Positions 46,430 through 64,000 of a DNA stretch of 64,000 nt are shown here, piece after piece (within the stretch, counting starts at the first letter, position 1; each line of letters begins with the position of its first letter). The stretch spans positions 434,001 through 498,000 of the forward strand of contig NZ_JAFIMU010000004.1 of NCBI RefSeq assembly GCF_017302985.1. Direction: 5' to 3'. The notes under the pieces are model-generated. The model searched no databases, was not told where the DNA came from, and saw only the letters and a program-made list of their open reading frames with translations. The position numbers and the translations under genes were made by a program. This stretch comes from Corallococcus macrosporus. Lineage in GTDB: Bacteria > Myxococcota > Myxococcia > Myxococcales > Myxococcaceae.

Positions 46430-47245
46430 TCAACCTCCCATGGGAGTCTGGGGCTCGCTGCGCGACGCACGGGTGAGAAGCGCGCGCAGCCGCTCCACGA
46501 TGAACCCGAGGTGCGGATCCTGTAGCAGTTCATGGTGGCTGCCGGGGACGTCGTCCACCTCCAGGCCGCCTCGCACCAGGGGCTCCCAGCCCCGGTGACG
46601 CGGGAGCCCGGTGGGGGCCTCGCTGGCGCTCAGCAGCAGGGCGGTGCCGTCGTAAGGCCGGGGCACGTACTTCTCCTGGGCGAAGAGGTTGGCCTGGAAG
46701 ACCCGGAAGAGGGCGCGCAGCTGAGCAGGCCCGGAGTGCGCATCGAGGATGTTCGCCCGGAGCCCTTCCTGCAGCAGATGATCCAGCATCGCCGCGTCGT
46801 CGCCCTGTGCCAGCGCTTCGGCGGAGACGGCGAGCTCCCGGCCAAAGGCGGTGGCGGTGGTCTGGGCGAAGGCGATCCTCACTCGGGCCTCGGAGGAGAA
46901 GTGGCTGTCCTCCGCGGCAGGTCCCGTGAGCCCGGGCACGTGCGCGTCGATGAGCGCGAGCAGGTCCACCGCTTCGCCGGAGTCGCGCAGCCTGCGAGCC
47001 ATCTCGTAGGCGATGACGCCGCCGAGGGACCAACCTCCGAGCTGGTAGGGGCCATGCGGCTGCACGGAGCGGATCGCTTCGATGTAGAGGTCCGCCATCT
47101 CCTCGATGGACTCCGCGACCGGGCGTCCGTCGAGGCCGCGCGACTGGAGGCCGTAGACGGGCAGCGACGGCCCCAGGCGGCGCGCCAGCTCCGAGTAGGC
47201 GAGGACGTTGCCGCCGCCGGGATGGACGAGGAAGAGCGGCCGATG
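46430..47245 (-). other. NRPS-2 terminal thioesterase domain
   Basis: This is a type I TE of about 270 residues starting at RPLFLVHPGGG. The nucleophile is the Ser of GWSLGG (codon 47027-47029), and the histidine region is PGSHHELLQD. It should release the NRPS-2 product independently of NRPS-1. Confidence 0.93.
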
Positions 47246-50200
47246 GCCGGGCTCTCCCCGCTCCAGCGGGACGAGGGGCGTCCATGCCTGCGAGGCGTCT
47301 TGGAGCACCAGGGCGAGCTGCTCCACGGTGGGCTGCTGGAAGAGGACGGAGAGCGGAAGGCTGAGGCCAAGGCGCTCGCGGATGGCCGCGAGCATTCGCA
47401 CGGCGAGCAGGGAGTGACCGCCGAGTTCGAAGAAGCTGGAGCGAATGCCAACGGAGCGGACACCGAGCACGTCCTCCCAGATGCGCGCGAGCTGCATCTC
47501 GAGCGCATCGCGCGGGGCGACGAAGTTCCTGGCCTCGACAGCGTGGGCGTCGGGTTCGGGCAGGGCCTTGCGGTCGACCTTGCCGTTGGAGTTGAGCGGC
47601 AGTGCATCCAGGACGAGGAGGGTGGAAGGCACCATGTACTCGGGCAACTGCTGCCGGAGATGTGCCTTCAGTGACTCGGAGTCCAGCGAGTGGCCATCGC
47701 GCGCGGTGACGTAGCCGATGATGCGCTTGTCGGCAGCCTCGCCCCTGGCGACGACGACGGCGTCCTTGAGGCCCGGAGCGCGGCGGAGGGCTGCTTCGAT
47801 TTCACCCAGCTCGATGCGGAAGCCGCGCACCTTCACCTGGAAGTCGATGCGGCCGAGGTACTCCAGCCGCCCGTCCATGCGGTACCGGACGCGGTCACCC
47901 GTGCGGTACATGCGACCACCCGGAGGGCCGTAGGGTTCCGGGACGAAGCGCTCCGCGGTGAGCTCCGGGCGTAGCAGGTAGCCCCGCGCCTGGCCTTCAC
48001 CCGCGAGGTACAGCTCACCGGCGACGCCCACGGGCACCGGCTGCAACGAAGCGTCCAGCACGTAGGCGCGCGTCGCGGGCAGGGGCCTGCCGATGAGAGG
48101 CACCTCGTCACGACCGACGAGAGAGGCGGTGGAGTAGGTGGTGTCCTCGGAGGGGCCGTAGAGGTTGTAGAGCTTCTGCACCGTCGGGACGGCGTAGACC
48201 TGCTTCGCCAGTGTCTCCGGCAGCGCTTCGCCCGCGAGGTTGATGACGCGCACGGTGGGCGGTACCGCATTCAGGCGCAGCAGTTGCGCCATGGCGGAGG
48301 GCACCGTGTTGACGAGGGTGACGTGCGAAGCAGTGGGCAGCTCCGCCAGGTGCAGGGCGTTGCGTGCCACCACCACCGCACCACCGCTGCTCAACGGGGC
48401 GAAGAGCTCGAAGACGGAGAGGTCGAAGTTGAGGCTCGTCGCGGCAAGCGTGCCCTTCAGTTCCTCCGGGCTGAAGGTCTCAAGGGCCCAGTGGAGGAAG
48501 GAGACAGCGTTGCCATGGGAGATGGCGACGCCCTTGGGGCGGCCGGTGCTGCCAGAGGTGTAGATGAGGTAGGCGAGGTGCCCGGGGTGGATGTCCACCT
48601 CGGGCGCCGTGGTGGGCTGCCTGGCCAGCTCCGCATCCGAGTCGAGGCACACGGGCGTGGCAGCCGTTTCAGGAAGCGCGGCGAGCAGGTGTGAGTGGGC
48701 GACGAGGGCAGGGCCCTGGGCGTCCTCCAGCAGCCAGCCCAGACGCTCACGCGGGTAGCTGGGATCCAGCGGCACATACGCACCGCCGGCCTTGAGGATG
48801 CCGAGAGCTCCAATGACGAGGTCCTCGGTGCGCTCGACGCAGAGGCCGACGCGGACTTCGGGACCGACGCCAAGTCCTCGCAGGCGGTGGGCGAGCTGGT
48901 TGGCCTTCGCGTTCACCTCCCGGTACGTCAGTTGCCGCTCCGGCGTGATGACGGCCAATGCGTCCGGCGTGCGGCGTACCTGGGCTTCCACCATCGCGGG
49001 GATGCTGGGCTCACGCGGGGCTTCGGTAACAGGCGGGTTCCACTCGACGAGGAGCTGCTGACGTTCGGACTCGGTGAGCAGGGGCAGGTCCCCCAGCTTC
49101 GTGTCCGGCTTCTTCGCGATGGCGGCCAGCAACACGCCGAAGTGGCCGGCCATGCGCTGGATGGTTGCCGCGTCGAAGAGGTCCGTCGCGTACTCCAGCG
49201 ACCCGACCAGTTCTCCCTGGACCTCTTGCAGGGCCAGCGAAAGGTCGAACTTGGCGAATCGCGCTTCCAGTGGCACGGCCTGGAACGACAGCTCCGGCAG
49301 ACGCAGCGCCTCGGTGGGCGTGTTCTGCAGGACGAACATCGCCTGGAAGAGCGGGCTTCGGCTCATGTCCCGAGTGGGCTGCACGGCTTCGACAAGCTTC
49401 TCGAAGGGCAGGTGCTGGTGGTCGTACGCCGCGAAGGTCGTGCCTCGCACTTGAGCCAGCAGCTCACGGAACGTCTCGCGTGGATTCAGCCGCGCCCGCA
49501 GGACGAGCGTGTTGACGAAGAAGCCGATGAGCGCCTCGGTCTCCGCCTGGGTGCGGCCTGCGATGGGCGAGCCCACACTGATGTCGTCCTGCGCGGAGTA
49601 GCGCGACAGCAGCACCTGGAACGCCGCGAGCAGCACCATGAAGGGCGTGGCGCCCTCGCGTCCCGCCAGCGCCTTGAGCGCGTGAGAGACCTCCGGGGAA
49701 ACGCGCACCTCCACCGTCGCGCCACGGTGCGACTGCACGGGCGGACGCGGACGATCCGTGGGCAGTTCCAGCGCGGCGGGAACTCCGGAGAGCTGCTGCT
49801 TCCAGTAGTCGATCTGAGCGTCCAGCGCCTCGCCCTGGAGCCAGTCGCGCTGCCACGCCGCGAAGTCCGCGTACTGCACGGGCAGCGGCGTGAGTCCAGG
49901 CTCCTTGCCGTCATGGAATGCGGCGTACAGCGAGATGAGCTCGCGCACGAGAACGCCCATGGACCAGCCGTCGGAGACGATGTGGTGCATCGTCACCAGC
50001 AACAGGTGGGAGTCGTCCGTCAGGCGCACCAACGTGCTGCGCAGCAGAGGACCCGTGGCGAGCCGGAAGGGACGCCGGGCTTCTTCGTCGGCCAGCCGCC
50101 GCGCCTCGTTCCCCCGCAGGTCCTCGGGCAGGAGGGAGAGGTCCATGAGCGGCAGCGTCCATTCCGCCGGAGCATGGATCCGCTGCGTGGGCTGACCCTG

Positions 50201-53200
50201 ATGCTCGTGGAAGGTGGTGCGCAGGGCTTCGTGACGCGCGACGAGTGACTCGAAAGCGCGGCGCAGGGCCTCCACGTCCAGGTGGCCCGTGAGCTGGAGC
50301 GCTGCCGGGAGATTGTAGGATGCGTCTTCCGGCTGGAGCTGATCCAACAGCCACAGCCGCTGCTGGGCGAAGGACAGCGGCACCGGGCCCTCGTGCGTGG
50401 CCCGGGTGAGCTTCGGCGCCTTCGGTCCCACGCTCCCGTGCAGCCGCCCAGCCAGGGCTTCCACCGTGGAGGACTCGAAGATTGCTCGCAGCGGCAGCTC
50501 CACACCGAGTTCCGCGCGCACGCGGGACACCACCTGCGTGGCCAGCAGCGAGTGACCACCCAGCTCGAAGAAGGAGTCCTTCACGCCCACCTGGGGCAGA
50601 CGAAGGACCTCCGCCCAGATGGATGCGAGCTTCGCCTCCAGCTCCGTGCGGGGCGCTTCGTAGGTGCTGCGCGACCGCGGGGCCTCCGGCTCCGGCAGGG
50701 CCTTGCGGTCGACCTTGCCGTTGGGGTTGAGCGGCAGTGCGTCCAGCACCACGAAGGTGGAGGGCAGCATGTACTCGGGGAGCCCCTGACGCAGATGGGC
50801 CTTGAGGGCTTCCACCTCCAGCGAGTTGGGCGCGACGTAGGCAACGAGCCGCTTGTCGGCGGCTTCGCCCTTCGCGACGACGACGGCGTCCTTGAGGCCC
50901 GGAGCGCGGCGAAGGGCCGCTTCAATCTCACCCAGTTCGATACGGAAGCCACGCACCTTCACCTGGAAGTCGATGCGGCCGAGGTATTCCAGCCGCCCAT
51001 CCGCGCGGTAACGGACGCGGTCGCCCGTGCGGTACATGCGGCCGCCGGGAGGACCGTAGGGCTCCGGCACGAAGCGCTCCGCGGTGAGCTCCGGACGCAG
51101 CAGGTAGCCACGCGCCTGGCCTTCACCCGCGAGGTACAACTCACCGGCGACGCCCACGGGCACCGGCTGCAACGAGGTGTCGAGCACGTAGGCGCGCGTC
51201 GCAGGGAGCGGACGACCGATGAGCGGCACCTCGTCACGACCGACGAGGGAGGCGGTGGAGTAGGTGGTGTCCTCGGAGGGGCCGTAGAGGTTGAAGAGCT
51301 TTTGCACCGTTGGGACGGCGTAGACCTCCTTGGCCAACGTCTCCGGCAGAGCTTCGCCCGCGAGGTTGATGACACGCACGGTGGGCGGTACCGCATTCAG
51401 GCGCAGCAACTGCGCTATGGCGGAGGGCACCGTGTTGACGAGGGTGACGTGCGAAGCAGTGGGCAGCTCCGCGAGGTGCAGTGCGTTGCGTGCCACGACC
51501 ACCGCGCCGCCACTGGAGAGAGGCGCGAAGAGCTCGAAGACGGAGAGGTCGAAGTTGAGGCTCGTCGCGGCGAGGGTGCCCTTCAGCTCCTCCAGGGTGA
51601 ACGTCGCGAGCGCCCAATGGAGGAAGGAGACAGCGTTGCCATGGGAGATGGCAACGCCCTTGGGACGGCCCGTACTTCCAGAGGTGTAGATGAGGTAGGC
51701 GAGGTGCCCGGGGTGGATGTCCACCTCGGGCGCCGTGGTGGGCTGCTTCGCCAGCTCCGCATCCGAATCGAGGCACACGGGCGTAGCGGAGGTTTCAGGC
51801 AACGCGGCGAGCAGGTGCGAGTGGGCGACGAGGGCAGGGCCCTGCGCGTCTTCCAGCAGCCAGCCCAGGCGCTCACGCGGGTAGCTGGGGTCGAGCGGCA
51901 CGTAGGCACCGCCGGCCTTGAGGATGCCGAGAGCACCGATGACGAGGTCTTCGGTGCGCTCCACGCAGAGGCCGACGCGGGTTTCAGGCCCGACGCCGAG
52001 TCCTTGCAGGCGGTGGGCGAGCTGGTTGGCCTTCGCATCCACCTCTCGATACGTCAGCTGCCGTTCCGGCGTGATGACGGCCAGCGCGTCCGGCGTGCGG
52101 CGCACCTGGGCTTCCACCATCGCGGGGATGCTCGGCTCGTACTGCGTCTGCGTGGCAGGCGGATTCCACTCGATGAGGAGTTGCTGACGTTCGGGCTCCG
52201 TAAGCAGGGGCAGGTCCCCCAGCTTCGTGTCCGGCTTGTTCGCGATGGCCTCCAGCAACACGCCGAAGTGGCCGGCCATCCGCTGGACGGTCGCCGCGTC
52301 GAAGAGGTCCGTCGCGTACTCCAGCGTGCCCGTCATGCCCGTGGGGGCTTCCCGTAGACCCAGGGAGAGATCGAACTTCGCGAAGTGGGTCTCCAGCGGC
52401 AGCGTCTGCATGGACAACCCGGGCAGGCGCAGCACCTCCGCCGGCATGTTCTGCAGGACGAACATCGCCTGGAACAACGGATTGCGGCTCAGGTCGCGCG
52501 TGGGCTGCACGGCCTCTACGAGCTTCTCGAAGGGCAGGTGCTGGTGATCGTAGGCCGCGAGCGTCGTGCCTCGCACCTGGGCCAACAGCTCGCGGAACGT
52601 CGCTCGAGGGTTCAGGTTCGATCTCAGGACGAGCGTGTTGACGAAGAAGCCGATGAGGCCTTCCGTCTCCGCCTGGGTGCGGCCCGCGATGGGAGAACCC
52701 ACGCTGATGTCGTCCTGCGAGGAGTAGCGCGACAGCAGGACCTGGAACGCGGCGAGGAACACCATGAAGGGCGTAGCGCCTTCACGCTGGGCCAGGGACT
52801 TGAGCGCCTCCGCGATGCTGGCGGGAACTCGCACGTCCACCGTCGCGCCCCGGTGGGACTGCACGGGCGGACGCGGACGGTCCGTGGGCAGCTCCAGCGC
52901 GGCGGGGGCTCCGGCCAACCGCTGCTGCCAGTAGTCGAGTTGCGCTTCCAGGACCTCGCCCTGGAGCCAGTCGCGCTGCCACGTGGCGAAGTCCGCGTAC
53001 TGCACCGGCAGCGGCGCCAGGGCCGGGGTGCTGCCCGTGCTGAAGGCCTCGTAGAAGGCCGCGACCTCACGCACGAGGACGCCCATGGACCAGCCGTCGG
53101 AGACGACGTGGTGCATGGTCACCAGCAGCAGGTGCTCCTCCGCTCCCAGGCGCACCAGGAGCCCTCGCAGCAGCGGTCCCGTGGCCAGATGGAACGGACG

Positions 53201-56200
53201 ACGCGCCTCCGTGGCCACGATGCGCCGGGCCTCCTCCTCGCGCTGTGCCTGCGGCAGTGCCGTCAGGTCGACGATGGGCAGCTCCCACGCCGCCGAATCC
53301 TGGACCCGCTGCGAAGGGGCCTCGTGTGACGCGGCGAGCGTGGTGCGCAGGGACTCGTGCCGGGCGATCAGCGCTTCGAACGCGCGGCGCAGGGACTCCG
53401 CGTCCACCTGGCCCGTCAGCCGCAGCGCCGTGGGGATGTTGTACGACGCGTCCCCGGGCTGGAGCTGATCCAACAGCCAGAGGCGCTGCTGGGCGAAGGA
53501 GAGCGGGATGGCTCCGTTGCGCGACGCGGGCCGCAGCGGCGGCGCACGACGCGCGGCGGACGGCGACCCCTCCAGCTTCGGCGCGAGGGCTTCGACGGTC
53601 GGCGCTCCGAACAGGGCCCGCAGCGGCAGTTCGACGCCGAATCCGGCCCGCACGCGTGAGACGAGCTGGGTGGCCAGGAGCGAGTGGCCTCCCAGCGCGA
53701 AGAAGTCGTCCCGGATGCCGACCCGCTCCACCCGGAGGACCTCGGCGAAGAGGGCCGCGAGCTTCTCCTCGGTCGTGGTGCGCGGCGCGACGAGGGCGGC
53801 GGCTCGCGGTGCATCCGTCGGCTCGGGCAGGGCCTTGCGGTCCACCTTGCCGTTGGCGTTGAGCGGCAGCGCCTCCAGCACCAGGAGTGACGTGGGCACC
53901 ATGTACTCGGGAAGCCGCTGCTGCAGGTGGGCGCGCAGTGCTTCCACGTTCAGCACGAGGCCTTCGTGCGCGGTGACGTAGCCGATGAGGCGCTTGTCCG
54001 CGTCCGCGCCCCGGGCCACGACGACGACTTCGTTGACGCCCGGGAAGGCGCGCAGGGCGGATTCGATCTCACCCAGCTCGATGCGGAAGCCGCGCACCTT
54101 CACCTGGAAGTCGACGCGGCCCAGAAAGTCGAGCGTGCCGTTCTCCAGCCAGCGGGCCTTGTCGCCCGTGCGGTAGAGGCGCTCTCCAGGAGTGGAGGCG
54201 AAGGGGTGGGGGACGAAGCGCTCCGCGGTCAGCTCGGGGCGGTGGAGGTAGCCCCAGGCGAGGCCGGGGCCACCAACGTACACCTCACCCGCGACACCCA
54301 CGGGCACGGGGTGCAGGTTCGCGTCGAACACATAGGCCGTGGAGTTCGGGATGGGACGGCCGATGGAGACGGGGCCCTCCACGCGCGTGTCGCGGTGCAA
54401 CGGCAACGTAGTGGAGAAGGTAGTGTTCTCTGTCGGGCCGTAAGCGTGAATCAGCGTCGCGTCTTCGGCGAGACGGGGCAGGTGGTCGCGAAGGCGGGAC
54501 CAGGGCATCACGTCGCCACCGGTGAGGACCTGCCGCACGTGGGCCAGGGCTTCTCCCTGGTGCAGGGCCATCTGCTCGAAGAGGGCGGTCGTCAGCCACA
54601 GCGTCGTCACGCGGTGGCGCCGCACCTGCTCCGCCAGTTCCTCCAGCGAGAGGGCATGGGGAGGCGCGAGGACGAGCTTCGCGCCGTGCAGCAGCGCGCC
54701 CCAGATTTCGAGCGTGGAGGCGTCGAAGGCAACGGGCGCGATTTGCAGCCATACCTCGTCATGGCCGAAGCGCATGAAGGTGCTGCCGAGCACCAGGCGG
54801 GTGATGCCCCGGTGGGGCACGCTGACGCCCTTGGGGCGGCCCGTGGAGCCCGAGGTGAACATGACGTAGGCGAGGGCTTCGCCTTCCACTCGGACGTCGG
54901 GAGCATGCGTGGGCCGCGAGGCCAGCACGTCCTGCTGGGCGTCCAGCCAGACGCGGGTACCGGAGGCGGGCAGCTTCGAGGCGAAGGGCTGATGCGTGAG
55001 CACCACGCCGACGTCGGCGTCCTCCAGCAGCGTCGCGATGCGCTCCACGGGGGCGTTGCGGTCCACGGGGACGAAGGCGGCGCCTGCCTTGAGGATGGCG
55101 AGCAGGGCGGTCACCATCTCGAACGAGCGCTCGAGGGCGAGGCCGACGCGCGCGCCGGGGACGATGCCCAGCGAGCCCAGGTGGTGGGCCAGTTGGTTCG
55201 CACGTGCGTCCAGCTGCGCGTACGTCAGCGAAGCGTCCCCCAGCACCAGGGCCACCGCGTCGGGCGTGCGCTGGGCCTGCTGGGCGAAGTGGACGTGGAC
55301 AGGGACGTCCATGGGGCTGACGGCCGCCGTGTCATTCCAGTCCACGAGGATGCGCTGGCGCTCCTCGGGCGAGAGCAGCGGCAGCGCGGACAGGGTTTGC
55401 TCGGGCTTCGCGGCGACGGCCTCCAGTAGCATGCGCAGGTGGCCTGCCATCCGCTCCACGGTGCTCTGCTCGAAGAGGGCGGTGCTGTATTCCAGCCAGC
55501 CGGTGAACCCCTGCGGCGAATCCTGCATCGTCAAGGTGAGGTCGAACTTGGCGGCCCGCGCGCCGGGAGCGAGCTGCTGGAAGGTGAGGCCGGGGACTCG
55601 CAGATCGCCGGTGGGAGCGTTCTGCAGGGTGAACATCACCTGGAAGAGCGGGCTGCGGCTGGTGTCCCGCACGGGCTGGAGGACTTCCACCAGCTTCTCG
55701 AACGGCAGGTGCTGGTGTTCGTAGGCCGCGAGCGTCGTGCCGCGCACCTGGGTGAGCAGTTCCCGGAACGTCTCGCGTGGATTCAGCCGGGCCCGCAGGA
55801 CGAGCGTGTTGACGAAGAAGCCGATGAGGCCCTCGGTCTCCGCCTGCGTGCGGCCCGCGATGGGCGTGCCCACGCTGACATCGTCCTGGCCGGCGTAGCG
55901 CGACAGGAGCAGCTGCCAGCCCGCGAGCAGCACCATGAACGGCGTGGCGCCCTCGCGCCGGGCCAGGGACTTGAGGGCCTGGGAGGCTTCAGGCGAAAGC
56001 TGGAGGGAGAGGGCCGCGCCCTCATGGGACTGGACGGCCGGCCGGGGCTTGTCCGTCAACAGCTCCAGCGCGGCGGGCGCACCCGCGAGCTGCTGCTTCC
56101 AGTAGTCGAGCTGCGCGTCCAGCGTCTCTCCCTGGAGCCAGTTGCGCTGCCATGCCGCGAAGTCCGCGTACTGCATGGGCATGGGACTGAGTGCGGGGGC

Positions 56201-59200
56201 GGCGCCCTGGGTGAACGCCGCGTAGAACATCACGAGCTCCCGGACGAGGACGCCCATGGACCAGCCGTCGGAGACGATGTGGTGCATCGTCACCAGCAGC
56301 AGGTGTTCGTCGGCTGCCAGTCGCACGAGGGCCGTGCGCAGCAGCGGTCCGCGCTCCAGGTGGAACGGCTGACGGGCATCCTCCGTGACGTGGCGCTGGG
56401 CCTCGGCCTCGCGCTGCGCTTCCGGCAGCGAGGACACGTCGATGAGCGGCAGGGTCCAGGCTCCAGGCGCATGGATGTGCTGGGTGGCCTGACCCTGGTG
56501 CTCATGGAAGGTGGTGCGCAGGGATTCGTGGCGGGCGACGAGCGCTTCGAAGGCGCGCCGCAGCGACTCCACGTCCACGTGGCCCTTCAGGCGCAGCGCC
56601 GTGGGGATGTTGTACGACGCGTCCCCCGGCGTGAGCTGGTCCAGGAACCAGAGGCGCTGCTGGGCGAAGGACAGGGGCAGGGCGCCTTCGTGTGAAGAGG
56701 CGCGCAGCGGCGGCGGACGATGCTCGGAGCGCTGGGCACCGTCGAGCTTCGTCGCAAGTGCGGCCACCGTGGACGCTTCGAAGAACACGCGAAGCGGCAA
56801 TTCCACGCCGAAGGTGGAGCGCACGCGCGAGACAAGCTGGGTGGCCAGCAGGGAGTGGCCTCCCATGGCGAAGAAGTCGTCGTGGATGCCCACACGCTCC
56901 ACGCGCAGCACTTCCGCGAAAAGGGCGGCCAGTTGCTCCTCGGTGTCGGTCCGAGGCGCGACGAAGTCGGACGAGCGCGCGAGGTTGCCCGGCTCGGGTA
57001 GCGCCTTGCGGTCGACCTTGCCGTTGGAGTTGAGGGGCAGCGCGTCCAGGACGAGGAGGGCGGACGGCACCATGTACTCCGGGAGCCCCTGCCGTAGGTG
57101 AGCCTTGAGGGCGTCCACCTCCAGCGAGTGTCCATCTCGTGCGGTGACGTAGCCGATGAGGCGCTTATCGGCGGCTTCGCCCTTCGCGACGACAACGGCA
57201 TCCTTGAGACCGGGCACACGGCGAAGCGCTGCTTCGATTTCGCCCAGCTCGATGCGGAAGCCACGCACCTTCACCTGGAAGTCGATGCGGCCCAGGTACT
57301 CCAGCCGCCCGTCCGCGCGGTAACGGACGCGGTCACCCGTGCGGTACATGCGGCCACCCGGAGGACCGTAGGGTTCCGGGACGAAGCGCTCCGCGGTGAG
57401 CTCCGGACGCAGCAGGTAGCCACGCGCCTGGCCTTCACCCGCGAGGTACAGCTCACCGGCGACACCCACGGGCACTGGCTGCAACGCAGCGTCCAGCACG
57501 TAGGCGCGCGTCGCGGAGAGCGGGCGGCCGATGAGCGGCACTTCGTCACGGCCGACGAGGGACGCGGTGGAGTAGGTGGTGTCCTCGGAGGGGCCGTAGA
57601 GGTTGAAGAGCTTCTGCACCGTGGGGACGGCGTAGACCTGCTTGGCCAACGTCTCCGGCAGCGCTTCACCCGCGAGGTTGACGACACGCACGCCTGACGG
57701 CACCGCATTCAGGCGCAGCAGTTGCGCCATGGCGGAGGGCACCGTGTTGACGAGGGTGACGTGCGAAGCAGTGGGCAGTTCCGCCAGATGCAGGGCATTG
57801 CGTGCCACGACCACCGCGCCGCCACTGGAGAGAGGCGCGAAGAGTTCGAAGACGGAGAGGTCGAAGTTGAGGCTCGTCGCGGCGAGGGTTCCCTTCAGCT
57901 CCTCCGGGGTGAAGGTCTCAATGGCCCAGTGGAGGAAGGAGACAGCGTTGCCATGGGAGATGGCGACGCCCTTGGGGCGGCCGGTGCTGCCGGAGGTGTA
58001 GATGAGGTAGGCGAGGTGCCCGGGGTGGATGTCCACCGCGGGCGCCGTGATGGGCTGCTTCGCCAGCTCCGCATCCGAATCGAGGCACACGGGCGTAGCG
58101 GAGGTTTCAGGCAACGCGGCGAGCAGGTGTGAGTGGGCGACAAGGGCCGGGCCCTGGGCGTCCTCCAACAGCCAGCCCAGGCGCTCACGCGGGTAGCTGG
58201 GGTCGAGCGGCACGTACGCACCACCGGCCTTGAGGATGCCGAGAGCACCGATGACGAGGTCTTCGGTGCGCTCCACGCAGAGGCCGACGCGGGTTTCAGG
58301 CCCGACGCCGAGTCCTCGCAGACGGTGGGCGAGCTGGTTGGCCTTCGCGTCCACCTCCCGATACGTCAGCTGCCGTTCCGGCGTGATGACAGCCAGCGCG
58401 TCCGGCGTGCGGCGCACCTGGGCTTCCACCATCGCGGGGATGCTGGGCTCGTACTGGCTCTGCGCGGCTGGCGGATTCCACTCGAGGAGGAGTTGCTGAC
58501 GCTCGGGCTCGGTGAGCAGGGGCAGGTCCCCCAGCTTCGTGTCCGGCTTCTTCGCGATGGCCTCCAGCAACACGCCGAAGTGGCCGGCCATCCGCTGGAC
58601 GGTCGCCGCGTCGAAGAGGTCCGTCGCGTACTCCAGCGTGCCACTTATCCCCTCCTGGAACTCTTGCAGCGAGAGCGTGAGATCGAACTTCGCGAAGTGA
58701 ACCTCCAGGGGCAGGGGCCGCAGGGTGAGGCCCGGAAGCTGGAGCGTCTCCGTGGGCGTGTTCTGCAGAGCGAACATCACCTGGAAGAGCGGGCTGCGGC
58801 TGGAGTCCCGGACGGGCTGGATCGCTTCCACCAGCTTCTCGAACGGCACGTGCTGATGCTCGTAGGCCGTGAGCGTCGTGCCGCGCACCTGGGCGAGCAG
58901 TTCCCGGAACGTCGCGCGCGGCGCTACGTGGGCGCGCAGCACCAGGGTGTTGACGAAGAAGCCGATGAGGCCTTCGGTCTCCGCCTGGGTGCGGCCCGCG
59001 ATCGGCGTGCCCACGCTGACGTCATCCTGCGCGGCGTAGCGAGACAGCAGCACCTGGAAGGCCGCGAGCAGCACCATGAAGGGCGTGGCACCTTCGCGTC
59101 CCGCCAGCGCCTTGAGTGAGTGGGCGACCTCCGCGGGAATGCGCACGTCCACTTTGGCCCCCCGGTGCGATTGCACGGGCGGACGCGGACGATCCGTGGG

Positions 59201-62200
59201 CAGCTCCAGTGCGACCGGCGCACCCACGAGCTGCTGCTTCCAGTACTTGAGGTGCGTCTCCAACGTCTCGCCCTGGAGCCACTGGCGCTGCCACGCCGCG
59301 AAGTCCGCGTACTGCATGGGCAGTGGCGCGAGCGATGGACTCCGGCCCGCGCTGAACGCCTCGTAGCGGGACACCAGCTCCCGGACGAGCACCCCCATGG
59401 ACCAGCCGTCGGAGACGATGTGGTGCATCGTCACGAGCAACAGGTGTTCTTCCGCTCCCAGTCGCAGGAGGGCGGTACGCAGGAGCGGACCTGCCTCCAA
59501 CTGGAAGGGCTGGCGAGCGTCCTCGGTGACCCGGCGTCGTGCTTCGGCTTCACGCCGCGCTTCGGGGAGGACGGACAGGTCCTGCACGGGCAGGAGCCAT
59601 TCGCTCGGGGGATGGATGGACTGCGTGGCCTGGCCCTGGTGTTCACGGAAGGTGGTGCGCAGGGCTTCGTGGCGCGCGACCAGCGCTTCGAAGGCGCGGC
59701 GAAGGGACTCCACGTCCACCCGGCCCTTCAAGCTCAGCGCGCTGGAGATGTTGTACGACGCATCCCCCGGCGTGAGCTGATCCAGGAACCAGAGCCGCTG
59801 CTGCGCGAAGGACAGGGGCGCCGTGGTGGCTCGCACCCTGGGGATGTTCGGCGGGGCTTGCACCCCAGAGGTCCGAGCGGAGTCGATGCGCTGGGCAAGC
59901 CCGGCCACGGTCGGGGCTTCGAACAGCGCGCGCACCGGCAACTCACGCCGGAAGGTGGTGCGCACTCGGGACATGAGCTGGGTGGCCAGCAGCGAGTGGC
60001 CACCGAGCGAGAAGAAGTCATCGTGAATGCCCACGCGTTCCACGCGCAGCACCTGCGTGAAGAGGGCCTCGAGCTGCTCCTCGGTGGCTGTTCCCGGCGC
60101 GACGTAGGTGGACGCGACCGCGGTGCCCTGCGGCGCCGGCAGGGCCTTGCGGTCCACCTTGCCGTTGGCGTTGAGGGGCAGGGCGTCCAGGACGAGGAAG
60201 GCGGAGGGCACCATGTACTCGGGCAGCCGCTCCTTGAGGAAGGAGCGCACCGCGCTGGTGTCCAACTGCTGGCCCGAAGTGGGCACGAGGTACGCGACGA
60301 GACGCTTGTCGCCAGGGACGTCCTCACGGGCGAGGACAACGGCCTCGTGCACGGAGGCATGGGCGAGAAGGGAGGCTTCGATTTCCCCCAGCTCGATGCG
60401 GAAGCCGCGCACCTTCACCTGGAAGTCGAGCCGCTGCAGGTAGTCCAGCTGGCCGTCGGCCCGCCAGCGCACGACGTCGCCGGTGCGGTAGAGGCGCGCG
60501 CCCGGGGTTGAGGAGAAGGGGTGCGGGATGAAGCGCTCGGCACTCAGGGCCGGCTGGCCGAGGTAGCCCCAGGCGAGGCCTTCACTGGCGAGGAAGAGCT
60601 CGCCAGGGACGCCAATGGGCACCGGCTGCAGGTGGGCATCGAGGACGTAGGTGCGGGTGTTGGCGATGGGGCGGCCAATGGGAGGCCGTGTGCCGTCGTC
60701 GCGCGCGGAAGGCGGGACGGGCGTGAAGGTGGCGACGACGGTGCTCTCGGTGGGCCCGTAGTGGTTGAAGAGGGTGGCGGGGACGGAGGGAGGCGGGCCG
60801 TGGTGCAGGGCGTCGCCGCCCGTCAGCAGGGCACGCAGGGCCATGGGGCGGGGCCACTCCTCACGCAGGACGGCCTCGGCCAGCGGCGTCGGCATGAAGC
60901 AGGTGGTGATGGCCTCGCGGGCCATCCACCGCAGCAGTTGAGAGGGCTCCGCGCGCACGGCTTCCGGCGGGATGACGAGGCTGGCGCCGGAGGCAAGAGA
61001 GGGCCACACCTCCCAGGTGGAGGCGTCGAAGGCGACGCCGGCGGTGAGGGCGGTGGAGTCGTCCGGCGACAGCGAATAGGTGCGCTGGTGCCAGGAGACG
61101 AGATTCATCAACGCGCGGTGGTGGACGGCGACGCCCTTGGGACGGCCGGTGCTGCCGGAGGTGTAGATGACGTAGGCCAGGTCCTGCGGGCCCACGGCTG
61201 CCACGGGCAGCGGCTGCCGCGCTGCCGCACCCTCTTCCATCTCCAGGGAGAGGACGCGCGCGGAAAGCGCGGGCAGAGAGGGCCGCAGGTGCTGCTGGGT
61301 GAGGAGGACGGAGGCAGCGGAGTCCTCCAGCATGAAGGTGAGGCGCTCCGGCGGGACGCCAGGAGCGATGGGGACGTAGGCGGCGCCCACCTTGAGGACG
61401 GCCAGCAAGCCCGCCACCAATTCAGGCGAACGCTCGGCGAGGACAGCGACGCGGTCACCTCGGGAGACACCCGCCGCGTGCAACTGGACGGCGAGGCTGT
61501 GAGCCCAAGTGTCGAGGCCTGCGTAGGTGACGCTTCGCTCGCCCATGCGCACGGCAGTGGCGTCCAGCGTGCGACCGGCATCGGTGATGCTTTGCTCGCC
61601 CATGCGTACGGCAATGGCCTCCGGAGCGCGGCGGGCCTGCTCGGCGATGACGTGGTGGATGCAGGTGTCGCGCGGGAAGGCGACGTCCGTCTCATTCCAC
61701 TCGATGAGAAGCTGCTGGCGCTCGGAAGCGGTGAGCATCTCCAGGGAGGAGACGCGGGCGTCGGGCTGGGCGGCGAGGGCGGAGAGGAGGACCGCGAAGT
61801 GGCCCATGAGACGCTGGACGGAGGCGGCGTCGAAGAGGTCGGTGCTGTACTCGAGGAAGCCGGTGAGGCCCTGGGGCACCTCGAAGAGGGTGAGGGCCAG
61901 GTCGAAGCGGGAGGAGTTGCCCTCCAGGGGGATGGGCTGGAAGGCCATGCCCGGGACGCGCAGTGCCTCGGCGGGGGCATTCTGCAGGACAAGCATCACC
62001 TGGAAGAGAGGGCTGCGGCTCAAGTCTCGCGAGGGCTGGAGGACTTCCACCAGCTTCTCGAAGGGGACGTGCTGGTGCTCGTAGGCCGCGAGGGTGGTGG
62101 CCTTCACCTGGGAGAGCAGTTGACGGAACGAGTCCTCCGGGCGCACGTGGGCGCGCAACACCAACGTGTTGACGAAGAAGCCGATGAGGCTTTCGGCCTC

Positions 62201-64000
62201 GGCGTGGGTGCGGCCGGCGATGGGAGAGCCGACGCTGATGTCGTCCTGGCCGGAGTAGCGAGAGAGCAGCAACTGGAAGGCGGAGAGCAGCAGCATGAAG
62301 GGCGTCGCGCCCTCCCGCTGGGCGAGGCTTCGCAGCGAGTCCGTCAGCTCCGAGGGGAAGTGTACGGGCAGCGTGGCGCCACGACGCGACTGGACGGGCG
62401 GACGAGGACGGTCCGTGGGCAACTCCAGCGCCGAGGGGGCCCCGGCCAGCTGCCGCTTCCAGTAACCGAGCTGCGACTCCAGCGTCTCGCCCTGCAGCCA
62501 CTCGCGCTGCCAGAGGGCGAAGTCCGCGTACTGCACGGGCAGCGGCGGCAGTGACGGGGCCCGGCCGCTACTGAAGGCTTCGTAGAGGCTCGCCAGCTCG
62601 CGGATGAGGACGCCCATGGACCAGCCGTCGGAGACGATGTGGTGCATCGTCACGAGGAGGACGTGGGAGTCCGCTGAAAGCTTGAGGAGCGCGGTTCGCA
62701 GCAGCGGACCGTGAACGAGGTGGAAGGGCTGCCGGGCTTCCCGGGTGGCAAGCCGCACCGTCTCCGCTTCGCGCGCGAAATCGTCCAAGCCAGACAGGTC
62801 CTCGACCGGAAGCGCCCACGCAGCCGGCGCATGGATGCGCTGGAAGGGCTGGCCTTCGTGCTCGAAGAAGGTGGTGCGCAGGGCTTCGTGGCGTGCCACC
62901 AGTGCCTCGAAGGCACGGCGCAGGGCTTCGACGTCCAGATGCCCCTGGAGGCGGAGCGTGACGGGGAGGTTGTAGGACGCATCGTCCGGCGCCAACTGGT
63001 CGAGGAACCAGAGGCGCTGCTGGGCGAAGGAGAGCGGCTGGGGGCCCTCCGTGCGCGAGCGCGTCAGCGGCGGAAGCCGTGTGCCGGTAGAAGCCCGCTG
63101 CAACTTCTCCGCGAGGGAGGCGATGGTGGGGGCCTCGAAGAGGGCGCGGAGCGGCAACTCCACGTCGAGGGCGGAACGCACACGGGCCACCAGTTGGGTG
63201 GCGAGAAGCGAGTGGCCGCCCAATTCGAAGAAGTTGTCTGTGCGGCCCACGGTGGGCACGCGCAGCACTTCGCTCCAGAGCGCCGCGAGCTTCTCCTCCA
63301 GCGGCGTCACCGGCGCTTCGTAGGCGTGCGACGCACGAAGCAAGCTTGCGTCCGGGGCAGGCAGCGCCTTGCGGTCCACCTTGCCGTTGGACGTGAGCGG
63401 CAGCGTCTCCAAGGAGACGAAGGCGGCGGGCACCATGTACTCGGGCAGGTGCTGCTTGAGGTGGGCACGAAGGGCGGAGACATCGAGCGCTTCGCCCACG
63501 ACGTAGGCCACCAGCCGCCTGTCGCCTGGAGCGTCCTCACGGGCCAGCACCACGGCGTCCTTCACGGACGGGGCGGCACGCAGGGCGCTTTCGACTTCAC
63601 CCAACTCGATGCGGAAACCACGCACCTTCACCTGCGCGTCGATGCGCCCGACGAAGTCCAGTTGTCCATCCGCGCGCCAGCGCACCACGTCGCCCGTGCG
63701 ATAGAGGCGAGCGCCCTCTTCACCCGAGAAGTCGTCCGGCACGAAGCGCTCGGCGGTGAGGCCCGGACGCCCTGCGTATCCACGTGCGACACCCACGCCA
63801 CCGATGTGCAGTTCACCGCGCACGCCCACGGGCACTGGTTGCCCGTGCGGGTCGAGCACGTAGACACAGACGTTCGCCAACGGCTTGCCAATGGACGGGA
63901 CGTTCCCATCCGCGACCACCTCACCCAGCGTGGCGATGACGGTGGCCTCCGTCGGGCCGTAGGTGTTGAGCAACCTGCGCCCCGGAGCCCAGCGCGCGAC
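46430..64000 (-). CDS. Second giant nonribosomal peptide synthetase, 5' end outside window
   Basis: The frame is open from the window edge (64000) to the stop at 46430-46432, giving 5,856 visible codons. It enters within an A domain just before the YGPTE motif and then shows T, five full C-A-T modules and a TE. It is paralogous to NRPS-1 along its whole visible length. Predicted residues are Lys-like (partial), Leu, Ala/Gly, Val-like, Ala/Gly, Ala/Gly. All C domains have HHI/VVSDGWS and all T domains GGHSL. No epimerisation domain is present. Because it ends in its own TE, it should release its own product rather than pass a chain to NRPS-1. How many modules precede the visible part is unknown; by analogy with NRPS-1 the partial one may be module 1. 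Confidence 0.96.
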   Translation of the reverse strand, partial: VARWAPGRRLLNTYGPTEATVIATLGEVVADGNVPSIGKPLANVCVYVLDPHGQPVPVGVRGELHIGGVGVARGYAGRPGLTAERFVPDDFSGEEGARLYRTGDVVRWRADGQLDFVGRIDAQVKVRGFRIELGEVESALRAAPSVKDAVVLAREDAPGDRRLVAYVVGEALDVSALRAHLKQHLPEYMVPAAFVSLETLPLTSNGKVDRKALPAPDASLLRASHAYEAPVTPLEEKLAALWSEVLRVPTVGRTDNFFELGGHSLLATQLVARVRSALDVELPLRALFEAPTIASLAEKLQRASTGTRLPPLTRSRTEGPQPLSFAQQRLWFLDQLAPDDASYNLPVTLRLQGHLDVEALRRAFEALVARHEALRTTFFEHEGQPFQRIHAPAAWALPVEDLSGLDDFAREAETVRLATREARQPFHLVHGPLLRTALLKLSADSHVLLVTMHHIVSDGWSMGVLIRELASLYEAFSSGRAPSLPPLPVQYADFALWQREWLQGETLESQLGYWKRQLAGAPSALELPTDRPRPPVQSRRGATLPVHFPSELTDSLRSLAQREGATPFMLLLSAFQLLLSRYSGQDDISVGSPIAGRTHAEAESLIGFFVNTLVLRAHVRPEDSFRQLLSQVKATTLAAYEHQHVPFEKLVEVLQPSRDLSRSPLFQVMLVLQNAPAEALRVPGMAFQPIPLEGNSSRFDLALTLFEVPQGLTGFLEYSTDLFDAASVQRLMGHFAVLLSALAAQPDARVSSLEMLTASERQQLLIEWNETDVAFPRDTCIHHVIAEQARRAPEAIAVRMGEQSITDAGRTLDATAVRMGERSVTYAGLDTWAHSLAVQLHAAGVSRGDRVAVLAERSPELVAGLLAVLKVGAAYVPIAPGVPPERLTFMLEDSAASVLLTQQHLRPSLPALSARVLSLEMEEGAAARQPLPVAAVGPQDLAYVIYTSGSTGRPKGVAVHHRALMNLVSWHQRTYSLSPDDSTALTAGVAFDASTWEVWPSLASGASLVIPPEAVRAEPSQLLRWMAREAITTCFMPTPLAEAVLREEWPRPMALRALLTGGDALHHGPPPSVPATLFNHYGPTESTVVATFTPVPPSARDDGTRPPIGRPIANTRTYVLDAHLQPVPIGVPGELFLASEGLAWGYLGQPALSAERFIPHPFSSTPGARLYRTGDVVRWRADGQLDYLQRLDFQVKVRGFRIELGEIEASLLAHASVHEAVVLAREDVPGDKRLVAYLVPTSGQQLDTSAVRSFLKERLPEYMVPSAFLVLDALPLNANGKVDRKALPAPQGTAVASTYVAPGTATEEQLEALFTQVLRVERVGIHDDFFSLGGHSLLATQLMSRVRTTFRRELPVRALFEAPTVAGLAQRIDSARTSGVQAPPNIPRVRATTAPLSFAQQRLWFLDQLTPGDASYNISSALSLKGRVDVESLRRAFEALVARHEALRTTFREHQGQATQSIHPPSEWLLPVQDLSVLPEARREAEARRRVTEDARQPFQLEAGPLLRTALLRLGAEEHLLLVTMHHIVSDGWSMGVLVRELVSRYEAFSAGRSPSLAPLPMQYADFAAWQRQWLQGETLETHLKYWKQQLVGAPVALELPTDRPRPPVQSHRGAKVDVRIPAEVAHSLKALAGREGATPFMVLLAAFQVLLSRYAAQDDVSVGTPIAGRTQAETEGLIGFFVNTLVLRAHVAPRATFRELLAQVRGTTLTAYEHQHVPFEKLVEAIQPVRDSSRSPLFQVMFALQNTPTETLQLPGLTLRPLPLEVHFAKFDLTLSLQEFQEGISGTLEYATDLFDAATVQRMAGHFGVLLEAIAKKPDTKLGDLPLLTEPERQQLLLEWNPPAAQSQYEPSIPAMVEAQVRRTPDALAVITPERQLTYREVDAKANQLAHRLRGLGVGPETRVGLCVERTEDLVIGALGILKAGGAYVPLDPSYPRERLGWLLEDAQGPALVAHSHLLAALPETSATPVCLDSDAELAKQPITAPAVDIHPGHLAYLIYTSGSTGRPKGVAISHGNAVSFLHWAIETFTPEELKGTLAATSLNFDLSVFELFAPLSSGGAVVVARNALHLAELPTASHVTLVNTVPSAMAQLLRLNAVPSGVRVVNLAGEALPETLAKQVYAVPTVQKLFNLYGPSEDTTYSTASLVGRDEVPLIGRPLSATRAYVLDAALQPVPVGVAGELYLAGEGQARGYLLRPELTAERFVPEPYGPPGGRMYRTGDRVRYRADGRLEYLGRIDFQVKVRGFRIELGEIEAALRRVPGLKDAVVVAKGEAADKRLIGYVTARDGHSLEVDALKAHLRQGLPEYMVPSALLVLDALPLNSNGKVDRKALPEPGNLARSSDFVAPRTDTEEQLAALFAEVLRVERVGIHDDFFAMGGHSLLATQLVSRVRSTFGVELPLRVFFEASTVAALATKLDGAQRSEHRPPPLRASSHEGALPLSFAQQRLWFLDQLTPGDASYNIPTALRLKGHVDVESLRRAFEALVARHESLRTTFHEHQGQATQHIHAPGAWTLPLIDVSSLPEAQREAEAQRHVTEDARQPFHLERGPLLRTALVRLAADEHLLLVTMHHIVSDGWSMGVLVRELVMFYAAFTQGAAPALSPMPMQYADFAAWQRNWLQGETLDAQLDYWKQQLAGAPAALELLTDKPRPAVQSHEGAALSLQLSPEASQALKSLARREGATPFMVLLAGWQLLLSRYAGQDDVSVGTPIAGRTQAETEGLIGFFVNTLVLRARLNPRETFRELLTQVRGTTLAAYEHQHLPFEKLVEVLQPVRDTSRSPLFQVMFTLQNAPTGDLRVPGLTFQQLAPGARAAKFDLTLTMQDSPQGFTGWLEYSTALFEQSTVERMAGHLRMLLEAVAAKPEQTLSALPLLSPEERQRILVDWNDTAAVSPMDVPVHVHFAQQAQRTPDAVALVLGDASLTYAQLDARANQLAHHLGSLGIVPGARVGLALERSFEMVTALLAILKAGAAFVPVDRNAPVERIATLLEDADVGVVLTHQPFASKLPASGTRVWLDAQQDVLASRPTHAPDVRVEGEALAYVMFTSGSTGRPKGVSVPHRGITRLVLGSTFMRFGHDEVWLQIAPVAFDASTLEIWGALLHGAKLVLAPPHALSLEELAEQVRRHRVTTLWLTTALFEQMALHQGEALAHVRQVLTGGDVMPWSRLRDHLPRLAEDATLIHAYGPTENTTFSTTLPLHRDTRVEGPVSIGRPIPNSTAYVFDANLHPVPVGVAGEVYVGGPGLAWGYLHRPELTAERFVPHPFASTPGERLYRTGDKARWLENGTLDFLGRVDFQVKVRGFRIELGEIESALRAFPGVNEVVVVARGADADKRLIGYVTAHEGLVLNVEALRAHLQQRLPEYMVPTSLLVLEALPLNANGKVDRKALPEPTDAPRAAALVAPRTTTEEKLAALFAEVLRVERVGIRDDFFALGGHSLLATQLVSRVRAGFGVELPLRALFGAPTVEALAPKLEGSPSAARRAPPLRPASRNGAIPLSFAQQRLWLLDQLQPGDASYNIPTALRLTGQVDAESLRRAFEALIARHESLRTTLAASHEAPSQRVQDSAAWELPIVDLTALPQAQREEEARRIVATEARRPFHLATGPLLRGLLVRLGAEEHLLLVTMHHVVSDGWSMGVLVREVAAFYEAFSTGSTPALAPLPVQYADFATWQRDWLQGEVLEAQLDYWQQRLAGAPAALELPTDRPRPPVQSHRGATVDVRVPASIAEALKSLAQREGATPFMVFLAAFQVLLSRYSSQDDISVGSPIAGRTQAETEGLIGFFVNTLVLRSNLNPRATFRELLAQVRGTTLAAYDHQHLPFEKLVEAVQPTRDLSRNPLFQAMFVLQNMPAEVLRLPGLSMQTLPLETHFAKFDLSLGLREAPTGMTGTLEYATDLFDAATVQRMAGHFGVLLEAIANKPDTKLGDLPLLTEPERQQLLIEWNPPATQTQYEPSIPAMVEAQVRRTPDALAVITPERQLTYREVDAKANQLAHRLQGLGVGPETRVGLCVERTEDLVIGALGILKAGGAYVPLDPSYPRERLGWLLEDAQGPALVAHSHLLAALPETSATPVCLDSDAELAKQPTTAPEVDIHPGHLAYLIYTSGSTGRPKGVAISHGNAVSFLHWALATFTLEELKGTLAATSLNFDLSVFELFAPLSSGGAVVVARNALHLAELPTASHVTLVNTVPSAIAQLLRLNAVPPTVRVINLAGEALPETLAKEVYAVPTVQKLFNLYGPSEDTTYSTASLVGRDEVPLIGRPLPATRAYVLDTSLQPVPVGVAGELYLAGEGQARGYLLRPELTAERFVPEPYGPPGGRMYRTGDRVRYRADGRLEYLGRIDFQVKVRGFRIELGEIEAALRRAPGLKDAVVVAKGEAADKRLVAYVAPNSLEVEALKAHLRQGLPEYMLPSTFVVLDALPLNPNGKVDRKALPEPEAPRSRSTYEAPRTELEAKLASIWAEVLRLPQVGVKDSFFELGGHSLLATQVVSRVRAELGVELPLRAIFESSTVEALAGRLHGSVGPKAPKLTRATHEGPVPLSFAQQRLWLLDQLQPEDASYNLPAALQLTGHLDVEALRRAFESLVARHEALRTTFHEHQGQPTQRIHAPAEWTLPLMDLSLLPEDLRGNEARRLADEEARRPFRLATGPLLRSTLVRLTDDSHLLLVTMHHIVSDGWSMGVLVRELISLYAAFHDGKEPGLTPLPVQYADFAAWQRDWLQGEALDAQIDYWKQQLSGVPAALELPTDRPRPPVQSHRGATVEVRVSPEVSHALKALAGREGATPFMVLLAAFQVLLSRYSAQDDISVGSPIAGRTQAETEALIGFFVNTLVLRARLNPRETFRELLAQVRGTTFAAYDHQHLPFEKLVEAVQPTRDMSRSPLFQAMFVLQNTPTEALRLPELSFQAVPLEARFAKFDLSLALQEVQGELVGSLEYATDLFDAATIQRMAGHFGVLLAAIAKKPDTKLGDLPLLTESERQQLLVEWNPPVTEAPREPSIPAMVEAQVRRTPDALAVITPERQLTYREVNAKANQLAHRLRGLGVGPEVRVGLCVERTEDLVIGALGILKAGGAYVPLDPSYPRERLGWLLEDAQGPALVAHSHLLAALPETAATPVCLDSDAELARQPTTAPEVDIHPGHLAYLIYTSGSTGRPKGVAISHGNAVSFLHWALETFSPEELKGTLAATSLNFDLSVFELFAPLSSGGAVVVARNALHLAELPTASHVTLVNTVPSAMAQLLRLNAVPPTVRVINLAGEALPETLAKQVYAVPTVQKLYNLYGPSEDTTYSTASLVGRDEVPLIGRPLPATRAYVLDASLQPVPVGVAGELYLAGEGQARGYLLRPELTAERFVPEPYGPPGGRMYRTGDRVRYRMDGRLEYLGRIDFQVKVRGFRIELGEIEAALRRAPGLKDAVVVARGEAADKRIIGYVTARDGHSLDSESLKAHLRQQLPEYMVPSTLLVLDALPLNSNGKVDRKALPEPDAHAVEARNFVAPRDALEMQLARIWEDVLGVRSVGIRSSFFELGGHSLLAVRMLAAIRERLGLSLPLSVLFQQPTVEQLALVLQDASQAWTPLVPLERGEPGHRPLFLVHPGGGNVLAYSELARRLGPSLPVYGLQSRGLDGRPVAESIEEMADLYIEAIRSVQPHGPYQLGGWSLGGVIAYEMARRLRDSGEAVDLLALIDAHVPGLTGPAAEDSHFSSEARVRIAFAQTTATAFGRELAVSAEALAQGDDAAMLDHLLQEGLRANILDAHSGPAQLRALFRVFQANLFAQEKYVPRPYDGTALLLSASEAPTGLPRHRGWEPLVRGGLEVDDVPGSHHELLQDPHLGFIVERLRALLTRASRSEPQTPMGG
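47246..50393 (-). other. NRPS-2 module 6' (C-A-T), Ala or Gly
   Basis: The A domain is about 49015-47560 and T is near 47415. Pocket residues read D-L-F-N-N-A-L-T-Y-K. C-A corresponds to module 8 of NRPS-1. The T domain corresponds to T9, with the join right after the NGKVDRKALPEP motif. Confidence 0.78.
50394..53519 (-). other. NRPS-2 module 5' (C-A-T), Ala or Gly, chimeric
   Basis: The A domain is about 52150-50700 and T is near 50550. Pocket residues read D-L-F-N-N-A-L-T-Y-K. The C domain resembles C6 of NRPS-1 (RTTL with EAPSQRV against EPSQCI), whereas A-T resembles A7-T7. The His motif reads HHVVSDGWS. Confidence 0.75.
53520..56689 (-). other. NRPS-2 module 4' (C-A-T), Val-like
   Basis: The A domain is about 55300-53825 and T is near 53682. 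Pocket residues read D-A-L-W-L-G-A-T-F-K, the Val code with Ala instead of Gly at position 322. The C and T domains correspond to NRPS-1 module 5. Confidence 0.75.
56690..59826 (-). other. NRPS-2 module 3' (C-A-T), Ala or Gly
   Basis: The A domain is about 58450-57000 and T is near 56854. Pocket residues read D-L-F-N-N-A-L-T-Y-K. The C, A and T domains correspond to NRPS-1 module 4, sharing YNISSALSLKG, NAVPSGVRV and DDFFAMGGHSL. Confidence 0.78.
59827..63049 (-). other. NRPS-2 module 2' (C-A-T), Leu
   Basis: The A domain is about 61665-60140 and T is near 59995. Pocket residues read D-A-W-F-L-G-H-V-V-K, a Leu-type code. The C domain nearly equals the C domain of NRPS-1 module 2, but the A domain belongs to a different lineage. 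It carries a 19-residue tandem duplication at its N-terminal edge. Confidence 0.8.
61499..61612 (-). repeat. 57-bp in-frame tandem duplication in the Leu A domain
   Basis: Two adjacent 57-bp units (61612-61556 and 61555-61499) encode 19 residues each, beginning AVRMGEQSITDAG and AVRMGERSVTYAG. The first two-thirds of the units are highly similar and the last part has diverged. The frame is kept, so one unit is extra relative to other A domains. Confidence 0.85.
63050..64000 (-). other. NRPS-2 module 1' (partial A, T), Lys-like
   Basis: Only the C-terminal part of the A domain and the T domain (GGHSL near 63209) are inside the window. The visible pocket residues Thr322, Val330, Ile331 and Lys517 equal those of NRPS-1 module 1, and the two are almost identical through this stretch. 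I call it 1' by alignment to NRPS-1; further modules may lie upstream. Confidence 0.65.

Follow-up and report, generated by a model that had tools for sequence, protein, structure and literature searches.

The window, a stretch of 64,000 nucleotides from a Corallococcus genome (G000:C4:434001–498000, G000 being the source genome; coordinates follow window numbering), belongs to an assembly of 9.81 Mb in 17 contigs with 111 condensation (C) domain matches to Pfam PF00668. The minus strand carries three adjacent NRPS genes, whose C-A-T modules number 9, 6 and 9 and each of which has one thioesterase (TE; Table 1). The initial annotation had described two NRPS open reading frames on this strand, and both were borne out; the first C domain of NRPS-2 and the whole of NRPS-3 lie outside the window. 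NRPS-1, NRPS-2 and NRPS-3 are also referred to as genes 1, 2 and 3 (N1, N2 and N3), and primes denote NRPS-2 domains (for example, C5′).

C, A and T motifs were present in every module together with a GxSxGG-type TE motif, as in a linear multimodular NRPS with a terminal TE. The C domains were matched by PF00668 and three A domains by TIGR01733, while the NRPS-2 TE region gave only partial matches to TE-bearing synthetases, with scores below their cut-offs. In a TE search, the best named relatives were Corallococcus. Plasmid records gave one partial Streptomyces match (19% of the query), and no NRPS accessory genes were evident among 20 selected flanking open reading frames.

The N-terminal stretch ahead of the first C domain is nearly identical in the three genes. 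The S-type A with which genes 1 and 2 open is preceded in NRPS-3 by an extra front unit, A1(Gly-like)-T1-C2(beta), which follows the first C; gene 3 has this unit in each of the four complete arrays described below. The 19-residue duplication near the start of NRPS-2 A2 was absent from all ten further A domains of its type that were compared (G000, G001, G003, G005, G012 and G013). A 662-bp exact repeat, the longest among the three genes, links NRPS-3 A5 and A6 and marks either a very recent conversion or an assembly spot worth checking. A fourth related synthetase (G000:C4:157889–183853; 8731 aa; opposite strand; TE 62%) has Ala-like A domains 75–76% identical to those of the array and apparently takes no part in its exchange.

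The residues named for the pocket codes (Ala, Val, Gln, Glu, Leu-like and Gly-like) and the pocket positions are those that we take to apply. On that assumption, the predicted orders are presumably S-Gln-Val-Ala-Val-Glu-Ala-Ala-Val for NRPS-1, where S stands for the code DLESIGTVI without a residue name; we likewise take NRPS-2 to read S-Leu?-Ala-Val-Ala-Ala and NRPS-3 to read Gly?-S-Leu?-Glu-Val-Val-Glu-Ala-Val. NRPS-2 A2, the Leu-like domain, has the code DAWMLGHVV. In a passage of PMC12283262, DAQDLGVVDK is reported for both Glu and Gln, and Gly is given a code of DILQLG type. The C1 domains form their own clade, about 53% from the other C types. The solved first C of the CDA synthetase (4jn3) scored 80.5 bits with C1 and 80.2 bits with C2 and is hence non-discriminating for a starter C; fatty-acid lipidation of the first residue is plausible.

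Table 1. Positions of the array genes and of the features discussed in the text
Feature	Coordinates	Strand	Remarks
NRPS-1, gene 1 of the array	16690..46077	minus	9 C-A-T modules and TE
NRPS-2, gene 2	46430..64000, frame continuing to 66382 beyond the window	minus	6 C-A-T modules and TE
NRPS-3, gene 3	66787..96300, extended window numbering	minus	9 C-A-T modules and TE
Gene-2-like tract in NRPS-1, C4 residue ~111 to A5 residue ~207	31359..36079	minus	Two-state path, sliding identity, AU
NRPS-2 thioesterase	46430..47287	minus	Groups with gene-2 TEs of three other complete arrays
A/T junction of NRPS-2 module 6, directly after NGKVDRKALPEP	47550..47565	minus	Ala-module A with TE-adjacent T type
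Final ~40 residues of NRPS-2 C5, C-A linker and A5 start	52000..52333	minus	Nearest to NRPS-2 module 3, 90–100%
NRPS-2 C5, iota type	52214..53506	minus	Gene-2-specific C lineage, distinct from NRPS-1 C6
Matching NRPS-2 stretch, likely donor, C3 residue ~111 to A4 residue ~207	54763..59485	minus	Placed by residue number only
NRPS-2 C2-A2	60137..63037	minus	Closest to NRPS-3 C3-A3 (95% and 98% aa)
19-residue in-frame duplication near NRPS-2 A2 start, both copies	61517..61615	minus	

Domain partners of NRPS-2

Domain partners were assigned by amino acid identity among the array domains, junctions by sliding identity and clades by AU tests; each AU test covered four named C types only and was run without C6 of G013 gene 3, a chimera described below. 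The initial annotation had mapped NRPS-2 onto NRPS-1 with modules M3, A6-T6-C7 and C9-A9 missing. Part of this mapping was recovered. Module 1′ matches M1 (C 97%, A 96% and T 96%), module 3′ is nearest to M4 (C 84%, A 96% and T 99%) and module 6′ combines C and A domains nearest to C8 (85%) and A8 (96%) with a T domain nearest to T9 (87%). The junction placed directly after NGKVDRKALPEP in 6′ is also seen by sliding identity, as the sequence beyond the motif is 78–93% identical to M9 versus 50–68% to M8.

Elsewhere the proposed partners held only in part. C2′ is 94% identical to C2 but 95% to NRPS-3 C3, and A2′ is 98% identical to NRPS-3 A3, its best NRPS-1 partner reaching merely 52.5%. In module 4′, C is nearest to C5 as proposed (90%), but A4′ is closer to N1_A3 (87.5%) than to A5 (81.9%); T4′ is nearest to N3_T6 (84.6%), with N1_T5 at 80.2%. 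TE′ is 75% identical to N1_TE but 78% to N3_TE. For module 5′, read as C6 joined to A7-T7, the latter is indeed the best NRPS-1 partner, but C5′ shares 74% with C6 and 79% with C8, and a tree with C5′ sister to C6 was rejected (pAU 4e-35; 36 C domains, four types). Joining the iota and theta clades, which hold C5′ and C6, respectively, was marginally rejected by AU (pAU 0.039) and not rejected by SH (0.195). The 5′ junction had been placed at the C-A boundary; the source in fact changes ~40 residues before that border, and NRPS-2's own module 3 is the source thereafter. C5′, A2′, T2′ and TE′ do not nest with their proposed NRPS-1 partners.

Array architecture and module number among relatives

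A TE search at E 1e-60 matched 15 of 16 genus genomes, that of the source included. The array is complete in three other genomes, all single-contig (G003, G012 and G013), and in pieces in others. Gene lengths are 9818/7719/8744 residues in G003, 9819/7670/8744 in G012 and 9818/6652/7719 in G013, corresponding to 9/7/8, 9/7/8 and 9/6/7 modules. C types were named by clade in a tree of the 94 C domains of the four complete arrays, with a denoting the first C. Gene 1 reads a-gamma-zeta-delta-epsilon-theta-kappa-kappa-omega in G000, a-gamma-zeta-zeta′-zeta′-theta-kappa-kappa-omega in G003 and G012, and a-gamma-eta-zeta-zeta′-theta-kappa-kappa-omega in G013. Gene 2 reads a-gamma-delta-epsilon-iota-kappa in G000 and G013, the same with a second kappa in G012, and a-eta-zeta-epsilon-iota-kappa-kappa in G003. 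Four more gene-2 copies were recognized on drafts by their TE (86–89%): those of G001, G002 and G014 read delta-epsilon-iota-kappa-TE behind a Leu-like A, with the first module lost at a contig end, and that of G005 has five modules (S, gamma-Leu-like, epsilon, iota and kappa).

Across these strains, epsilon-iota-kappa is common to all eight gene-2 copies, and delta precedes it in six (not in G003 or G005). The NRPS-2 module order occurs in five of the eight strains compared, the two deepest branches included, although three of the five have cut 5′ ends and only four arrays are complete. NRPS-2 C5 and TE belong to gene-2 lineages. The shared C order and the gene-2 TE type point to an old paralog, and NRPS-2 is best read, from these lineages, as an old sister of NRPS-1 and no shortened copy.

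In the species tree (rpoB, gyrB and parE, rooted on G007, G010 and G011), G002 and G001 branch off first, with supports of 100, and the inner nodes are weak (62–89). No Rpb2_6 match was found at E 1e-60 for rpoB of G013, a genome rated 100% complete, and G013 was placed by gyrB and parE only. Module number varies between strains, from 5 through 6 to 7 in gene 2 and from 7 through 8 to 9 in gene 3. Since the basal G002 and G001 have the NRPS-2 order, six modules are the simplest ancestral state of gene 2, and the simplest history is one module gain in the G003–G012 pair and one loss in G005. Hence the direction of change, which the initial annotation held could not be told from one genome, is given in part by the relatives. 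An ancestral gene 2 with two kappa modules is possible at the cost of about four losses. G007, G010 and G011 have the same C types in other orders, such as epsilon-iota-kappa-kappa in a gene ending in omega-Val-TE. Their distant genes contain epsilon-nearest C domains, with epsilon-iota-kappa-kappa read in G007 and G011, and are too rearranged to root the gene order, an approach that was dropped.

Gene 2 of G005, without delta-Ala, provides a natural module deletion (on a draft contig, with the ancestor set by parsimony). The T domain behind its Leu-like A and the T-C linker are module 2's own (linker 73–81% versus 42–50%), and the change to the epsilon C comes no later than ~30 residues into the C domain. 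This is a clean C-A-T loss with the crossing in the conserved start of C, where exact runs common to the two C starts are only 18–29 nt long in three proxy genomes. C6 of G013 gene 3 is a chimeric C domain: up to about residue 300, theta is nearest in most windows (77–90%) with iota close behind, and thereafter it is 96–100% identical to module 8 of G013 gene 1. The extra kappa-Ala module of G003 and G012 could be traced to no single parent because the neighboring Ala modules are too alike. At the A/T junction of module 6′, all eight gene-2 copies join a final A of Ala type to a final T of TE-adjacent type; thus, the junction predates these strains and bears no trace of a recent C9-A9 loss.

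Probable exchange between and within the genes

Within NRPS-1, a two-state path over 829 informative sites ran from gene-1 to gene-2 and back to gene-1 affinity, the gene-2 part covering frame residues 3371–4945. This ~4.7-kb tract agrees with NRPS-2 at 460 of 603 informative sites. Nucleotide identity to NRPS-2 modules 3–4 is 96–100% over T4 and the C5 start and 72–98% in other windows; gene-1 orthologs are 57–96% identical to the same stretch and are ahead in a few windows inside it. The left edge is blurred, as NRPS-2 is nearest also in the two opening windows of C4 (~40 residues). Modules 4–5 of gene 1 carry delta and epsilon in G000 and zeta or zeta′ in G003, G012, G013 and G005, and placing the G000 domains with gene-1 zeta′ was rejected (pAU 8e-6 for C5 and 1e-4 for C4; 21 C domains). 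Exact repeats between NRPS-1 and NRPS-2 reach 282 bp. Because epsilon is found in eight of eight and delta in six of eight gene-2 copies, and among five gene-1 copies only in that of G000, the likely direction of copying is from NRPS-2 to NRPS-1. Overwriting of NRPS-1 by NRPS-2 would then be the reason that M4 and M5 match NRPS-2. By code both stretches read Ala then Val and the copy would hardly alter the peptide; the A5 pocket code is DALWLGGTF in G000 NRPS-1 and DALFLGATL in G003, G012 and G013.

These results bear on a derivation of one gene from the other, with M3, A6-T6-C7 and C9-A9 lost on the way to NRPS-2 or gained on the way to NRPS-1. The best NRPS-1 partners (M1, C2, M4, C5, A7-T7, C8-A8 and T9) are roughly collinear and the A/T junction of module 6′ is sharp, which speaks for that derivation. 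However, C5′ is not C6, A2′ lacks an NRPS-1 partner, the M4/M5 similarity is accounted for by a later copy from NRPS-2, the epsilon-iota-kappa order is common to all gene-2 copies and the Ala-type A domains are 93–96% alike, so that A partners say little. We set the derivation aside on the C5′ tests, A2′, the gene-2 C order and the gene-2 TE, and regard it as very improbable. What stands of the initial annotation is a real similarity between the two genes and a natural record of module shuffling, and what falls is the specific three-piece deletion. The remaining alternative is that genes 1 and 2 stem from one gene by far older insertions and deletions, which may be so.

By nucleotide identity, 81 of 94 A domains, 50 of 94 C domains and 48 of 94 T domains have their nearest neighbor in their own genome, as do the TEs of genes 1 and 3 (8/8) but not those of gene 2 (0/4). 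For the A core the count is 83/94, against a label-shuffle mean of 22.5 and a maximum of 46 in 1000; A domains, with paralogs within a genome closer than orthologs between genomes, have therefore undergone concerted evolution. We computed an identity profile along the module as the best same-genome minus the best other-genome identity. It is at or below zero over C (minimum at C345–390), rises above zero between C405 and C420 and remains there across A and Asub apart from a single window (A304); it then lies close to zero at T34–T49 and below zero at the T-C linker. The homogenized cassette thus runs from the C-A linker to about mid-T, with zero crossings at both borders. The C domains are also homogenized in G000, less strongly (nearest neighbors in the own genome for 18/24), and the A/C contrast is hence a matter of degree. 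The C1–330 difference is +3.0 points in G000, +2.4 in G013, −0.5 in G003 and −0.2 in G012; the second half of T (T31 to end) gives +2.3 in G000 and +1.4 in G013, with no homogenization in G003 and G012, close sisters whose other-genome identity is raised for that reason. The signal combines exchange rate and selection on A without distinguishing them.

Changes of the nearest source were more frequent than by chance: the 24 G000 modules gave 112 switches versus 35–45 in five codon-column permutations at penalty 20, and 60 versus 9–15 at penalty 30. At penalty 12 the excess was small (260 versus 193–220), and the fine segments at this Viterbi penalty were dropped, as permutations yield nearly as many switches. 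Over all 94 modules at penalty 20, the stretch C390–A18, which makes up 60 of ~1047 positions, takes 65 of 422 switch points (a raw count, uncorrected for position). Together with the zero crossing of the profile there, this places natural exchange at the C-A linker, an exchange-unit border. Seven array Ala A domains are 95–100% identical to the query and the next in G000 only 76% (one class tested), so exchange looks local to the array. NRPS-1 A2 (39901–41466) keeps the code DAQDLGVVD like gene 1 of G003 and G012 and is in good part nearest to G000 DAKDLGVVD cassettes, a hint that selection preserves the code through conversion.

With Val-like codes and the two Glx codes pooled and the chimeric C counted apart, 88 of 93 typed modules have a C type that matches their A class. 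Eleven of 13 C types pair with a single A class, the exceptions being gamma (Leu-like, 8; Glx, 3) and zeta′ (Val, 3; Ala, 2). Selection may maintain this matching, or it may simply reflect homologous exchange that needs similarity.

Separate old duplications under strong purifying selection on A and little recombination, with within-genome likeness reflecting shared constraint, would be in keeping with pocket codes kept by class. We find this highly improbable: constraint would keep between-genome likeness too, yet A cores are nearest within genomes at the nucleotide level, the within/between contrast stops near domain borders and source switches exceed the permutations at penalties 20 and 30. 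An assembly artefact, in which repeats were collapsed or wrongly joined, is favored by the long exact repeats within NRPS-3 and between NRPS-1 and NRPS-2 and by the breaks inside array genes in several many-contig relatives, but has very little chance of being the explanation, as three single-contig genomes show the same three-gene order, the NRPS-1 tract is 72–100% identical to NRPS-2 by window with no uniform identity and the G005 loss lies where exact runs are so short.

A three-gene array that probably exchanges its own modules

We consider it highly probable that the locus is a three-gene tandem array of complete assembly lines evolving by homologous exchange among its own modules. Each gene would make its own chain, released by its own TE. 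The comparisons support four points. NRPS-2 is an old paralog distinguished by C lineages and a TE of its own, and its ~4.7-kb Ala-Val stretch has taken the place of the NRPS-1 counterpart in G000. A cassettes are homogenized per genome within the same specificity class, whereas C domains track position more closely, as do the T-C linker and the later half of T, and whole modules have been gained or lost between strains. The presumed mechanism is homologous recombination, with gene conversion yielding replacements and unequal crossing-over yielding gains and losses, probably aided by adjacency and high identity. Within-class exchange would keep the peptide, and a different peptide would come from insertions, deletions and the few changes across classes.

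Searches of open-licence PMC turned up no paper on this locus, which the passages of PMC6616573 and PMC12283262 do not name either. Intragenomic recombination, module deletion and concerted evolution are already known in NRPS from passages of PMC9205934 and PMC8097286. In the wollamide/desotamide bifurcation (Booth et al. 2022, PMC9205934), the passages describe NRPS genes that were duplicated and then recombined with one another inside the genome, and gene conversion and concerted evolution that blur duplications. Duplication and intragenomic recombination are shared with the Corallococcus array; there, as described, one bimodular gene was copied, one A replaced and the substrate changed, whereas the array has three complete lines of 6–9 modules, mostly same-class cassettes and a strain-variable module number. 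Baunach et al. 2021 (PMC8097286), in the passages concerned, hold that A-domain recombination drives diversity, describe intragenomic events and cite a two-module deletion for nodularin; exchange there is Acore-centered and leaves the C-A linker and Asub intact, whereas the Corallococcus cassette spans the C-A linker through Asub into T in same-class modules. A passage of PMC10212144 credits Burgard et al. 2017 with a site of natural recombination at A alpha-1 in myxobacteria; the myxochromide synthetases are likewise myxobacterial NRPS with natural recombination near the A start, a likeness by description only. The C-A border is a usable recombination site in A-domain substitution (Calcott et al. 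2020, PMC7486941) and, as described in PMC10212144, in XU/XUC designs. These concern engineering and pyoverdine, whereas whole-module loss in Corallococcus crosses at the C start and not at the C-A linker.

Two engineering questions are open: one concerns the junctions that natural NRPS can tolerate, the other a possible gating of the incoming residue by C domains. Here orthologous synthetases of close relatives differ by single modules, polarity comes from the species tree and one module-loss junction is mapped to within ~30 residues. The matching of C and A although A cassettes move offers material for both sides of the gatekeeping debate. Module loss read from two paralogs of one genome misleads when gene conversion is active. 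The array may further be a diversity generator, in which three adjacent lines serve as mutual templates, the cassette is recycled within its class, C type and A class are kept matched and modules are added or lost by crossing-over in the conserved C start; we see the arguments for and against this idea as evenly balanced. If true, it would contradict the view of the C-A linker and Asub as untouched, and the array would be a wild, multi-strain test bed for the NRPS junctions that nature tolerates.
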